Of a stretch of 31,770 nucleotides of DNA, positions 2,939-31,693 are shown piece by piece (position 1 is the first letter of the stretch; every line of letters starts with the position of its first letter). The translations under genes and the position numbers were made by a program. The notes beneath the pieces are model-generated. The model made no database searches, was not told where the DNA came from, and was given only the letters and a program-made list of their open reading frames with translations. The stretch lies in the IMG/VR virus record IMGVR_UViG_3300010354_000024, positions 1 to 31,770 of that record. One strand, written 5' to 3'. The stretch is from a virus.

Positions 2939-2969
2939 AAAATGCATTTAGTCAAAATGATAAAATGGT

Positions 2970-3030
2970 AAAAAAATAGGGGGTTATTACACCCCCTATA
3001 AATCTATGAACGGATAATTTTGAAAACAAT
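2970..3030 (-). ncRNA. Candidate minus-strand small RNA 2 with its own terminator
   Basis: On the minus strand a perfect TATATTTG -7 box (complement of 3036-3043) is followed about 40 nt later by a perfect 9-bp hairpin, ATAGGGGGT / ACCCCCTAT (2976-2984 with 2991-2999), and then a run of Ts (complement of the A-run at 2970-2976). On the + strand there is no T-tract after the hairpin, so it reads as a terminator only leftward. TTTTTG lies 15 bp upstream of the -7 box, shorter than the usual 19-21. Expected RNA about 60 nt. Confidence 0.4.
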
Positions 3031-3055
3031 CGGCACAAATATAATGAATTTCTAT

Positions 3056-3155
3056 AAACAAAAACAGCCCCGTAAGGAGCTGCAATTTGTAACGGCATCA
3101 GTCAGTCCGTTTGATAATTTTTGTTTACATTTTAGAAGGATGTGTTTAACGACTG
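3056..3155 (-). ncRNA. Candidate minus-strand small RNA 1 with its own terminator
   Basis: On the minus strand TATATTTG (complement of 3161-3168) precedes about 100 nt that end in hairpin CAGCTCC-TTAC-GGGGCTG (complement of 3082-3065) followed by TTTTTGTTT. Read leftward, all seven stem positions pair (one U-G wobble); read rightward there is a C-A mismatch and no T-tract, so the leftward RNA is favoured. The body holds an AACGG...CCGTT hairpin (3091-3111) whose loop contains CUGAC. No -33 box is evident. No ORF fits. Confidence 0.4.
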
Positions 3156-3180
3156 CGGTACAAATATAAAATTATTTTCG

Positions 3181-3285
3181 TATATTCGTATTGCTAACAA
3201 CAACGGAGGTCAGGCCGTTAAGTTTAAAGATTTTGCCCTATATGGGTATTAAGGCTGACCACTTAATACTTGTATAGGGTTTTTT
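3181..3285 (+). promoter_or_regulatory. Leader of the replication initiator with intrinsic terminator/attenuator
   Basis: TATATTCG (3181-3188) is a one-mismatch -7 box. Hairpin AACGG/CCGTT (3202-3206, 3215-3219) carries loop AGGTCAGG. Then a long stem, CCCTATA...GTATTAAG (3236-3242, 3246-3253) with CTTAATAC...TATAGGG (3262-3269, 3273-3279), is followed by TTTTTT (3280-3285): a canonical terminator 4 nt before the ATG at 3290. The terminator loop GCTGACCA is complementary to the upstream loop GGTCAG, so a loop-loop contact or pseudoknot could form. A terminator this close to a start codon implies conditional read-through. Confidence 0.6.
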
Positions 3286-3289
3286 ATTT

Positions 3290-4036
3290 ATGGAAGAAAC
3301 AAACTATTTTGTAATATTTCCAACCGAGTTGTTGGAAGTATTAACACCCCGACAAGCAATATTAATTGGGATTATCACAGGTATGGCGAAAAAACAAGGT
3401 TACGCATACCCAAGCAACCAAACATTATCAAACCTATTGAACGTGAGTATTGATTGTATTAAACGTGATTTAGCGGAATTGGAGGAAAAGAAACACATTT
3501 ATCGTGAAATTATTAGAAATGATAAACAGGAAGTAATACAACGCAGAATTTACCCTACGCATTTAAAACGCACCGAGGTGGGTGCAGAAATACCCCGAGG
3601 GGTGGGTGCAAATTTACACGGAGGGTCGGTGCAAAAATCCGCCATAGATAATAATAATAGTTATAATAATAAATTAGATAAAGATAATTATATAACTATC
3701 GCAGGGCGATTGTATGATAGGGATGAACTTTTTGAACTATGTTGGAAAGCATATCCAAGAAAAGAGGGAAAGGCCGCAGCACGGAAAACGTGGGGGAAAT
3801 TGAAAGTGGAGGATATCCAGTTAATACAAAAGCATCTACCATTATTTAAAAAAGAAAGTTCCGCAAAAGAAAAAAGATACATCCCACATTTTTCAACCTA
3901 CCTAAACCAACGCAGATTTGAGGATGAGGTAGAACCATCCAATATGGGCGGCATCCTAATGGATAAAATAAACAAGCTTACTAATGAAATCGGTCATTCA
4001 CTAAATAACACTTTACAAATCATTACAAATCAATAA
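3290..4036 (+). CDS. Replication initiator / replisome organizer-like protein
   Basis: 248 residues. Residues about 15-75 look like a winged-helix DNA-binding domain (GYAYPSNQTLSNLLNVSIDC then a recognition helix). An Asn/Asp-rich linker follows, then a C-terminal domain (about 145-210) with FELCWKAYPRKEGKAAARK and YIPHFSTYLNQRRFEDE, the pattern of gpO/DnaD-like phage replication proteins. These bind the origin and recruit the helicase or its loader. The gene starts 4 nt after a strong terminator, so expression should be controlled by read-through. The non-coding region upstream is also a candidate origin. Confidence 0.7.
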   Translation: MEETNYFVIFPTELLEVLTPRQAILIGIITGMAKKQGYAYPSNQTLSNLLNVSIDCIKRDLAELEEKKHIYREIIRNDKQEVIQRRIYPTHLKRTEVGAEIPRGVGANLHGGSVQKSAIDNNNSYNNKLDKDNYITIAGRLYDRDELFELCWKAYPRKEGKAAARKTWGKLKVEDIQLIQKHLPLFKKESSAKEKRYIPHFSTYLNQRRFEDEVEPSNMGGILMDKINKLTNEIGHSLNNTLQIITNQ

Positions 4037-5574: not shown

Positions 5575-5912
5575 GGCATTTAGAATCTTCCCTCCAAATT
5601 CATTGTGTTAAGTGGTTTAGGTACGAACACCCTGATATGATATTGTTTTCAATTCCTAATGGTGGTAAGCGTTCAGCAATAACCGCTAAAATAATGAAAG
5701 CGGAGGGGCAGATGTCAGGTGTAGCCGATTTATTCCTAATGTACCCACATCACGGATTCCATGGATTATGGATTGAGATGAAAACGGATAAGGGCAAACA
5801 ATCGGATAACCAAAAGTATTTCCAACAGAAAGCGGAGTTCTTTGGGTATAAATACACCATTGCACATTCGTTTGATGAATTTATGAAAATAGTAACAGAA
5901 TATTTAAAATGA
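5571..5912 (+). CDS. VRR-NUC-type nuclease
   Basis: 113 residues, the usual length for stand-alone phage VRR-NUC proteins. The PD-(D/E)xK core is visible: GVADLFL with Asp53, WIEMKT with Glu69 and Lys71, and Gln81 in the following helix. N-terminal FSIPNGGKRS is typical of the family. It probably cuts branched or flap DNA during replication or repair. ATGA overlaps on both sides couple it to the membrane peptide and to the methyltransferase. Confidence 0.85.
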   Translation: MRHLESSLQIHCVKWFRYEHPDMILFSIPNGGKRSAITAKIMKAEGQMSGVADLFLMYPHHGFHGLWIEMKTDKGKQSDNQKYFQQKAEFFGYKYTIAHSFDEFMKIVTEYLK

Positions 5913-6160
5913 TACATTTTTCACTATTTAGTGGCTTGGGAGGCTTCGATCTTGCCGCAGAATGGATGGGATGGAAGAATTATGTGAGTTGTGAAATAAA
6001 TCCGTTTGCCAATAAAATATTAGAATATCATTTTCCTGATGCCTATCATCATACAGATATAACAACTTTAACTTATGACACAATTAACACTGAACTTACA
6101 AGGAGATTTGGAAGCCACTGGAGGAACGATGATATCATCCTCACAGGTGGCTTCCCGTAA
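5909..6160 (+). CDS. DNA C5-cytosine methyltransferase, N-terminal part (stops in motif IV)
   Basis: 83 residues with SAM-binding motif I (FSGLGGFDLA, residues 7-16) and a CEINPFA acidic motif. The frame ends at GGFP, the first half of catalytic motif IV (GGFPCQPFS), because TAA-CTA follows. After these two codons the same frame continues at once with CQPFSLAGKRKG. The enzyme would transfer methyl from SAM to cytosine C5 and protect phage DNA. As written, this fragment lacks the catalytic Cys and should be inactive unless the stop is read through. Start is ATGA-coupled to the nuclease. Confidence 0.85.
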   Translation: MIHFSLFSGLGGFDLAAEWMGWKNYVSCEINPFANKILEYHFPDAYHHTDITTLTYDTINTELTRRFGSHWRNDDIILTGGFP

Positions 6161-6773
6161 CTATGCCAACCATTCAGCCTTGCAGGAAAAAGAAAAGGAA
6201 CTGAAGACGAACGCTACTTGTGGGGCGAAATGCTACGAGCAATACAAGAAATTAAACCGAAATATGTCATTGCAGAAAATGTCTTTGGTATCACAAATAT
6301 TGATGGCGGATTGGTATTCGAGCAGGTGTGCCTTGACTTGGAAGCTCAAGGGTACGAAGTTCAACCGTTTATTATTCCAGCTTGTGCCAAAAATGCACCG
6401 CACCGAAGAGATAGAGTTTGGTTTATTGCCTACACCGTCAGTGATGCAAATGGACTACGAACCAAAGGATGGATGGATATGGATGGGAAATTATTGGAAA
6501 GACGAAAAAGGCAAAAAAAGGCAAACGGATTTAACAACAACTGTGAAAATGGGGATGCTACCGACTCCAACTTGCCAGGATGCGAAACAAAAAGAGAACA
6601 GTCCAAGCCAACAACACAAAATAAACGAATTGAGTATAGCAGTAGCAGGTGGTACAACTTCCCATCTCAATCCCCGATTTGTAGCGGAGATGATGGGCTT
6701 CCCACCAAATTGGACGGAATTACCTTTTCAAAGTGGAGACAAGAATCAATCAAAGGATATGGAAACGCCATAG
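6075..6773 (+). CDS. ORF overprinted on the methyltransferase in the +1 frame
   Basis: 232 codons open in a frame different from the methyltransferase; ATG 6129 is an alternative start. The product is not random: WYSSRCALTWKLKGTKFNR, EIEFGLLPTP, a second MLPTP repeat, and FVAEMMGFPPNWTELPFQ are motifs I recall from proteins encoded with phage cytosine methyltransferases. The same bases read in the methyltransferase frame give canonical C5-MTase motifs, so both frames look conserved. The ORF stays open across the stop-bearing insertion at 6158-6163, reading it as Asn-Tyr. Function unknown; a partner or specificity subunit is a guess. Confidence 0.6.
   Translation: MTQLTLNLQGDLEATGGTMISSSQVASRNYANHSALQEKEKELKTNATCGAKCYEQYKKLNRNMSLQKMSLVSQILMADWYSSRCALTWKLKGTKFNRLLFQLVPKMHRTEEIEFGLLPTPSVMQMDYEPKDGWIWMGNYWKDEKGKKRQTDLTTTVKMGMLPTPTCQDAKQKENSPSQQHKINELSIAVAGGTTSHLNPRFVAEMMGFPPNWTELPFQSGDKNQSKDMETP
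6158..6163 (+). other. Two-codon stop-bearing insertion in methyltransferase motif IV
   Basis: Between codons for GGFP (6146-6157) and CQPF (6164-6175) lie TAA CTA. Removing these six bases (or the equivalent AACTAT, 6159-6164) restores the invariant GGFPCQPFS exactly. It is in frame, so it is either a small insertion, a site of stop read-through, or an error in the sequence. Confidence 0.85.
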
Positions 6774-6835
6774 TACCACAAGTGGCGTATGAAATATTCA
6801 AAGTTTTACAACACATTGATGATTCATTAAAATAA
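6218..6835 (+). CDS. DNA C5-cytosine methyltransferase, C-terminal part
   Basis: Same frame as 5909-6160; the frame is open from 6161, and the first usable start after the stop is TTG 6218, which would lose CQPF. Contains AENVFGI (motif VI, ENV), HRRDRVWFIA (motif VIII region) and C-terminal GYGNAIVPQVAYEIFK (motif X region). A low-complexity Lys/Asn-rich segment (about residues 85-145 of this part) is where target recognition would sit. With the N-terminal part the full protein would be about 308 residues. It is overlapped almost fully by the ORF at 6075-6773. Confidence 0.85.
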   Translation: MWGEMLRAIQEIKPKYVIAENVFGITNIDGGLVFEQVCLDLEAQGYEVQPFIIPACAKNAPHRRDRVWFIAYTVSDANGLRTKGWMDMDGKLLERRKRQKKANGFNNNCENGDATDSNLPGCETKREQSKPTTQNKRIEYSSSRWYNFPSQSPICSGDDGLPTKLDGITFSKWRQESIKGYGNAIVPQVAYEIFKVLQHIDDSLK

Positions 6836-30884: not shown

Positions 30885-31075
30885 AGCTTAAACCGTATTT
30901 TGCACCAACACCTAAAAGAATCAGAATCTTTGGCGATAGCCTTGCGGCTGCATCAATTATGGTTGCTGGGTTTAATATGGATCATCCATCCGTAATGATT
31001 GGTTGTGCCATTGTTGGTGGCGTTGGTAAGTTCCTATCTAATTTCTTTACAATAGAAAAAGAGAATGAAAACTAA
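30857..31075 (+). CDS. Second holin-like membrane protein
   Basis: 72 residues. TPKRIRIFGDSLAAASIMVA and PSVMIGCAIVGGVGKFLSNF give two hydrophobic, Gly/Ala-rich helices with a basic N-terminus and an acidic tail. This family precedes the endolysin in many Bacteroidota phages; it may be a holin or antiholin partner of the protein at 30584. Confidence 0.65.
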   Translation: MQTKQRSRVKLKPYFAPTPKRIRIFGDSLAAASIMVAGFNMDHPSVMIGCAIVGGVGKFLSNFFTIEKENEN

Positions 31076-31373
31076 ACAAATTACATTCCGTGGGTATTAC
31101 CACGAAGTCAAGAATAAATCACAAGTATATCTACACCATACCGCAGGTAATGACAATGCACAATCGGTATTTAATTGGTGGGAATCACAAGGCAAAAAAA
31201 TTGCTACCTGTGTTGTGATAAATTCCAAGGGTGAAATCATACAAGGGTTTGGTTCACAATACTGGGGATATCACCTTGGTTTAACCAATGATGTATTCCG
31301 TAAGAATGGTTGCACATTTATTCCATTGGATAAATCTTCCATTGGCATTGAGATTTGTTGTTGGGGCAGTTAA
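31065..31373 (+). CDS. Endolysin, N-acetylmuramoyl-L-alanine amidase, N-terminal part
   Basis: 102 residues. YLHHTAGND (His24, His25) and GYHLGL are the zinc and substrate loops of Amidase_2, and SIGIEICCWG is the core strand after which the family normally continues. Here the frame stops two codons later, while the next part of the enzyme is open in the -1 frame (31355-31693). One more G in the GGGG run (31363-31366, TTGGGGC) would join them. It would cut the amide bond between sugar and peptide of peptidoglycan. Confidence 0.85.
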   Translation: MKTKQITFRGYYHEVKNKSQVYLHHTAGNDNAQSVFNWWESQGKKIATCVVINSKGEIIQGFGSQYWGYHLGLTNDVFRKNGCTFIPLDKSSIGIEICCWGS

Positions 31374-31693
31374 CAAAAAAAGGTGAGAAGTTCTATAATT
31401 ATGTAGGCAAGGAAGTTCCAGCCGATGAGGTATGCACATTGGATAAACCATTTAAAGGATATAAGTATTTCCATAACTACACCGATGCACAGATTGAAGC
31501 CGTAGAGGCGTTATTAAAGCATTGGGGGCAGAAATACGGCATAGACCTTACCTACCATCAGGATGTATGGGATGTTACGCCACGAGCCTTAAAAAACGTT
31601 AATGGGGTATATACCCATAATTCGGTTCGTTACGATAAAATTGATGTATATCCCCACCCAAAATTGGTGGATATGCTGAAAAATCTAAAATAA
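31355..31693 (+). CDS. Endolysin, C-terminal part in the -1 frame
   Basis: The family-like sequence begins at GQLTKKGEKFYNYVGKEVP and includes YHQDVWDVTPRALK, where the last zinc-site residues lie. Its apparent TTG start at 31355 is only the edge of the open frame. Together with 31065-31373 it forms one amidase of about 209 residues. The last 46 nt lie in the terminal repeat. Confidence 0.8.
   Translation: MLLGQLTKKGEKFYNYVGKEVPADEVCTLDKPFKGYKYFHNYTDAQIEAVEALLKHWGQKYGIDLTYHQDVWDVTPRALKNVNGVYTHNSVRYDKIDVYPHPKLVDMLKNLK

Follow-up and report, generated by a model that had tools for sequence, protein, structure and literature searches.

Matching hairpin-loop codes in a leader RNA point to an undescribed control of phage replication by RNA

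A plus-strand leader element precedes the replication initiator gene

The window, i.e. the complete stretch of 31,770 nucleotides of the virus record analysed here, contains at positions 3181-3289 a predicted plus-strand leader RNA, by which the downstream replication initiator gene is probably controlled through transcription attenuation with loop-loop (kissing) recognition. Comparison of related phages indicates that the matching codes in the two hairpin loops were rewritten many times without losing their match, and this suggests that phage replication is subject to an RNA control not described so far. The alignments give good support to both hairpins, to the pairing of their loops, to the position of the promoter, to the place before the start codon and to the repeated coordinated change of the code. 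A preliminary description of this region was devoted to the minus strand and overlooked the plus strand of the gap, on which the best terminator found in a scan of the first 12 kb ends 10 nt before the ATG of the initiator. The leader and the gene under its proposed control comprise the following features.

3181-3188, plus strand: predicted -7 box TATATTCG of the leader promoter, from sequence and alignment (TATATTTG in the relatives L001 and L002)
~3195-3289, plus strand: leader RNA element, from covariance-model matches, with the start inferred from the promoter
3202-3219, plus strand: hairpin H1, AACGG-AGGTCAGG-CCGTT, from the fold and a hairpin scanner
3208-3213, plus strand: loop code 1, GGTCAG (GGUCAG in RNA), the exact reverse complement of code 2, with covariation in relatives
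3235-3280, plus strand: terminator hairpin H2 with 19 pairs and an 8-nt loop
3255-3260, plus strand: loop code 2, CTGACC (CUGACC in RNA), from the hairpin scanner
3280-3289, plus strand: U-tract TTTTTTATTT, reaching the start codon, from the sequence and the terminator scan
3290-4036, plus strand: gene of a DnaD-like replication initiator (HTH_36; phrog_270 replication initiation protein)

In the order promoter, H1, A-rich linker, H2, U-tract and initiator start codon, a stable hairpin with a U-tract is located between promoter and start codon, which is the arrangement of an intrinsic-terminator attenuator. The fold of the leader revealed no alternative nested structure, leaving loop-loop pairing as the sole candidate for an antiterminated state. 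What speaks against a kissing attenuator in the window itself is its promoter, in which no TTG is present at -33 and the -7 box contains TTCG in place of TTTG.

No copy of the stretch was detected when phage and plasmid records were searched for DNA similarity, and in bacterial genome contigs neither one sequence pattern of the element nor the initiator gave a match. According to the promoter type and a terminase similarity to Flavobacterium phages, the phages carrying the element look like Bacteroidota phages. Neither an integrase nor a repressor was noticed in the window. Elsewhere in the window, a DNA methyltransferase-like gene (5909-6835) extends across different reading frames, possibly due to a frameshift or sequencing error, and a lysis-type amidase-like gene (31065-31693) is split between two overlapping frames.

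The leader is exchanged as a cassette in near-identical phages

Two relatives from IMG/VR, L001 and L002, are identical to the window in the minus-strand region (212/212), and their initiators share 98.5% and 96.9% identity, respectively, with that of the window. In both of them one stretch is replaced.

3199-3278, plus strand: leader stretch replaced as a cassette in L001 and L002 (80 nt, 46% identity; L001 flanks 98.5-100% identical)

The versions of the window and of L001 alike consist of a small hairpin at the 5' end followed by a long terminator hairpin, with fold z-scores of -4.35 and -4.65, and each version has its own pair of complementary loops, namely GGUCAG/CUGACC in the window and GUGAGAG/CUCUCAC in L001.

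Loop codes covary without G-U intermediates

Further phages with the element, situated before different genes, were found by a terminase search and a pattern search. In the first 11 members, the loop-loop helix was paired in all 77 cells, with double changes at four of the seven pairs and not a single one-sided change. A covariance model (R1) of 11 relatives, from which the window and the loop pairs were left out, recovered the window element with 31.7 bits (E 4e-5) along with new members. When the loci upstream of DUF6291 proteins were added as a source, the covariance-model matches, the window not included, amounted to 70, of which 48 were distinct. The broader model R2, again built with the window left out, detected it with 49.3 bits (E 1.2e-7).

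The covariance-model-selected alignment A4 was evaluated for the 43 members whose loops are 7 nt long. Their 301 loop-loop pairs, representing 13 codes, are all Watson-Crick pairs and none is a G-U pair, whereas 167 of the 812 pairs with letters in H2 (20%) are G-U; H1 contains 10 G-U pairs and three mismatches. The whole structure is 95.8% paired in A4, and its covariation of 0.627 (0.202 in shuffles) was reached by none of 500 shuffles and is also far above that of slid registers. The non-redundant set comprises 44 leaders with 21 loop codes; scaffolds that differ can share a code, and one scaffold can have different codes. Since the loci share kinship, member counts do not represent independent events, and the numbers of codes (21) and of scaffolds are the safer measure. 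Hits with the codes CTGCGAAC, GTACGAAC and CCGCCAG differ in architecture and were excluded from the counts. Such a differing hairpin pair, which scores on both strands, was observed with code CTGCGAAC or GTACGAAC in the leaders of L208, L211, L215, L216 and L221, ahead of genes whose products start with MAKD.

Perfect loop-loop covariation could be accounted for by intramolecular pairing alone. The loops of H1 and H2 might form a tertiary contact within one RNA that tunes the strength or timing of the terminator, or senses a protein, the ribosome or the speed of the polymerase, and involves no action between molecules; the linker of about 10-22 nt between the hairpins could span both of them. 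We regard this reading as a serious possibility with roughly one chance in three. A contact in cis has no need for distinct codes, but many codes are found in close relatives and are exchanged with cassettes, and the complete lack of G-U pairs in the loops, set against their frequency in H2, looks like selection for codes that differ from each other.

Anatomy and genomic setting of the element

A TAnnTTTG box, which corresponds to the -7 consensus of sigma-A in flavobacteria (PMC9723704), is present in 38 of the 44 elements, usually 10-11 nt upstream of H1, at a background of 3.2%, and 28 elements have a TTG 18-22 nt farther upstream. H2 is more stable as plus-strand than as minus-strand RNA in 44 of 44 cases (mean -23.7 versus -14.3 kcal/mol), and therefore selection acts on the plus-strand RNA. 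A function at the DNA level, for which the DNA fold was also considered, is unlikely because the wobble pairs stabilise the plus-strand RNA only. Start-stop (NUG-stop) or Shine-Dalgarno mimicry in the H1 loops appeared suggestive in the first dozen members and was dismissed, being missing in L102 and others. In two members (L071:2925-2975; L089/L105), an additional hairpin, with a common GTAGTAAC stretch, separates the promoter from H1.

Each of the 17 records matched by R2 contains one element, and two elements with different codes occur in the 62-kb record G005 and in G006. The two elements of the 62-kb contig (L102:851-955 and G005:C1:59610-59712; codes GUCGCAU and GUGAGAG) each belong to a replication module of their own, and this contig may be a chimera of two phages. 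The downstream genes encode DUF6291 proteins, HTH_36 initiators and proteins without a Pfam match and are mostly replication genes; the element precedes several unrelated initiator families. A second element with this layout and the code GUCGAG/CUCGAC was observed in L103:2020-2110 and also in L026, L029, L031 and L030:11183, where it is located behind the large terminase gene and followed by a few hundred nucleotides without an obvious gene.

Complementary loops join the molecules of the phi29 packaging RNA into multimers. The leader is likewise one small RNA with two mutually complementary loops and might serve as a structural RNA that links molecules into chains or rings, but this is scarcely credible for an element that always stands directly before a start codon, ends in a terminator tail and precedes mostly replication rather than packaging genes.

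Complementary loops occur on further scaffolds

In a family-blind scan, each strong terminator was inspected for an upstream hairpin loop with at least 6 nt complementary to the terminator loop. This design was detected at 60 of 291 strong terminators, compared with 0-6 in 20 permutations, and further scaffolds came to light in this way, including one from a human gut phage record (L111 = MT837081). The window's own code was recovered in L134 on a like scaffold with a different gene downstream. By eye and fold, the same logic of complementary loops was seen on other scaffolds in the leaders of L139 (GUGGACG/CGUCCAC), L188 (CGUCUCAC/GUGAGACG), L180 (UCGGGCAGG/CCUGCCCGA), L189 and L190; a differing scaffold with complementary loops was likewise observed in L140.

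The U-tract is weak or displaced in the scaffolds of L139, L140, L190 and L188, which argues against a kissing attenuator everywhere; because of this feature, translation may be the controlled step in these four. Extended to the element in general, translational control would mean that H2, a few nucleotides from the start codon, blocks or shapes ribosome entry with or without kissing, and that termination plays a minor part. The start codon indeed lies 5-11 nt past the H2 stem in most members, and initiation in Bacteroidota is tuned by mRNA structure, Shine-Dalgarno sequences being lacking (PMC6847099). We nevertheless consider this general form of translational control unlikely, as most members, the window included, have a tract of six to eight Ts directly behind a strong stem.

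Divergent minus-strand units are not countertranscripts of the initiator

According to the preliminary description, the gap carries two tandem minus-strand small-RNA units that control the initiator in the manner of countertranscripts.

3056-3168, minus strand: unit 1, with TATATTTG at 3168-3161 and a terminator at 3083-3064; window group only
2969-3043, minus strand: unit 2, with TATATTTG at 3043-3036 and a terminator at 2999-2976; same terminator in L007

Its sequence observations were reproduced. The box TATATTTG is exactly present in both units, and at least two copies on one strand of the 351-nt gap would be expected with P ~0.0004, given the gap's own dinucleotides. Both leftward hairpins with their T-tracts are among the three best sites found when the first 12 kb were scanned for terminators: the terminator of unit 2 has a 9-bp stem without mismatch and seven Ts, and that of unit 1 consists of CAGCTCC/GGGGCTG followed by TTTTTGTTT. 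The unit 1 stem is unbroken only as leftward RNA, as had been stated, because it holds a U-G pair. Open reading frames of at least 50 amino acids are absent within 2956-3289, in line with the view that no protein fits, and sequence inspection revealed that both minus promoters lack a TTG at the proper spacing, the weakness already conceded for their -33 boxes.

The existence of short transcription units on the minus strand is probable. Across the 1.35 Mb of related loci, only 15 distinct short units from TAnnTTTG to a terminator were found, eight of which are a divergent leftward unit preceding the plus-strand element. Since this unit recurs across several lineages (window group, L007, L030, L141-L146, L157 and L161), unit 2 represents a real recurring arrangement; outside the window, unit 1 occurs only in the near-identical relatives L001 and L002. 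A minus-strand box at the corresponding site is absent in 35 of the 44 elements. The terminator of the divergent unit acts leftward and, in those relatives that were inspected, directly follows the upstream stop codon. In the simplest reading, the unit would yield a short leftward transcript that is separated from the upstream operon by its own terminator. The leftward RNAs of L141, L157 and L161 have a common body (AATCCGTT...TTGTTATTTGTCAT...GGAT) before the terminator, and because all three share it, these RNAs may possess a separate function.

The recurrence of minus units in several lineages is what favours countertranscript control of the initiator, but this model is now very improbable. 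The minus RNAs run left from ~3155 within units that together span 2969-3168 and do not overlap the leader at ~3195-3289, and therefore they are not antisense RNAs opposite the initiator leader. Moreover, minus units are missing in most members and remain unchanged where the leader and its loop code are swapped, and no match was seen between the minus-RNA loops and the codes of the relatives. The unit 1 loop CUGACU, which could pair weakly with the window's GGUCAG, was rejected as code partner because L001 has the same unit 1 despite its code GUGAGAG. From the earlier proposal, control by an RNA directly ahead of the replication initiator is retained with respect to place; strand, which is plus, and design are different.

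Proposed mechanism

In the kissing attenuator proposed here, the promoter would start an RNA of about 90 nt that comprises H1, the A-rich linker, H2, the U-tract and the start codon. Most transcripts are likely to be terminated at H2 before the gene, and, with slightly less assurance, the frequency of read-through by RNA polymerase is presumably set by loop-loop pairing. The released leader RNA should be stable because of a hairpin at each end. With close to an even chance, if slightly below it, nascent leaders also become paired with released ones of their own code; the resulting negative feedback would be copy-dependent, and phages with the same code would show self-specific interference. 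This model of action in trans is based on the purity of the code, i.e. the lack of G-U pairs, the coordinated changes and the swaps, which argues for specific recognition since cis folding alone needs no such purity. In a broader and more tentative form, Bacteroidota phages might possess a hypervariable RNA code for self-recognition ahead of the replication initiator, usually one per genome, and same-code leaders might shut down the replication gene by kissing loops, giving plasmid-like incompatibility groups that drive code change and cassette swaps.

The element is a widespread RNA, not represented in Rfam, at the replication control point of Bacteroidota-like phages, including a human gut phage record. 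Its loops display unusually clean compensatory evolution, with many codes and no intermediates, and thus provide a natural experiment in specific RNA recognition as well as a supply of kissing-loop attenuators that are matched and independent of each other. If action in trans is true, phages that have no obvious lysogeny module would possess, in these leaders, an incompatibility or superinfection system encoded in RNA.

Comparison with known RNA control systems

The window and the loci of the relatives matched no Rfam family, riboswitches included, and the covariance model of the C4 antisense RNA (RF01695) had no match in the window or in 24 loci. A metabolite riboswitch is not indicated either, as no conserved unpaired ligand-binding core was found and loops and stems vary or are swapped wholesale. 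In the open-access literature, no description of the element in phages was found.

P4 CI, pT181 attenuation and the ColE1 loops serve as analogues of the proposed mechanism; by the comparisons made here, the element belongs to none of these systems. The pT181 plasmid encodes a separate antisense RNA opposite the leader that binds the attenuator hairpin. The phage element resembles such plasmid attenuators in being a leader attenuator ahead of a replication initiator, but here both complementary loops reside in one RNA, and the strand opposite the plus-strand leader showed no promoter-terminator unit. In pT181, recognition of the attenuator starts as kissing of hairpin loops and the terminator decides (PMC4878617). 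Short complementary loops are also shared with RNAI and RNAII of ColE1, where they start pairing and the loop sequence decides compatibility (PMC9458437); in contrast to ColE1, the leader element has no sense-antisense overlap, and no primer RNA was seen.

Premature termination of replication genes by leader pairing on the same strand is known from the CI RNA of phage P4 (PMC4825925). The element is similar to this immunity system, and to the c4 RNAs of P1 and P7, in that segments complementary to each other occur in a single leader, which precedes the replication genes under control and is encoded on their strand. It differs from P4 CI in that it is a compact element of two hairpins, the loops of which are fully complementary and the second of which is the terminator itself.
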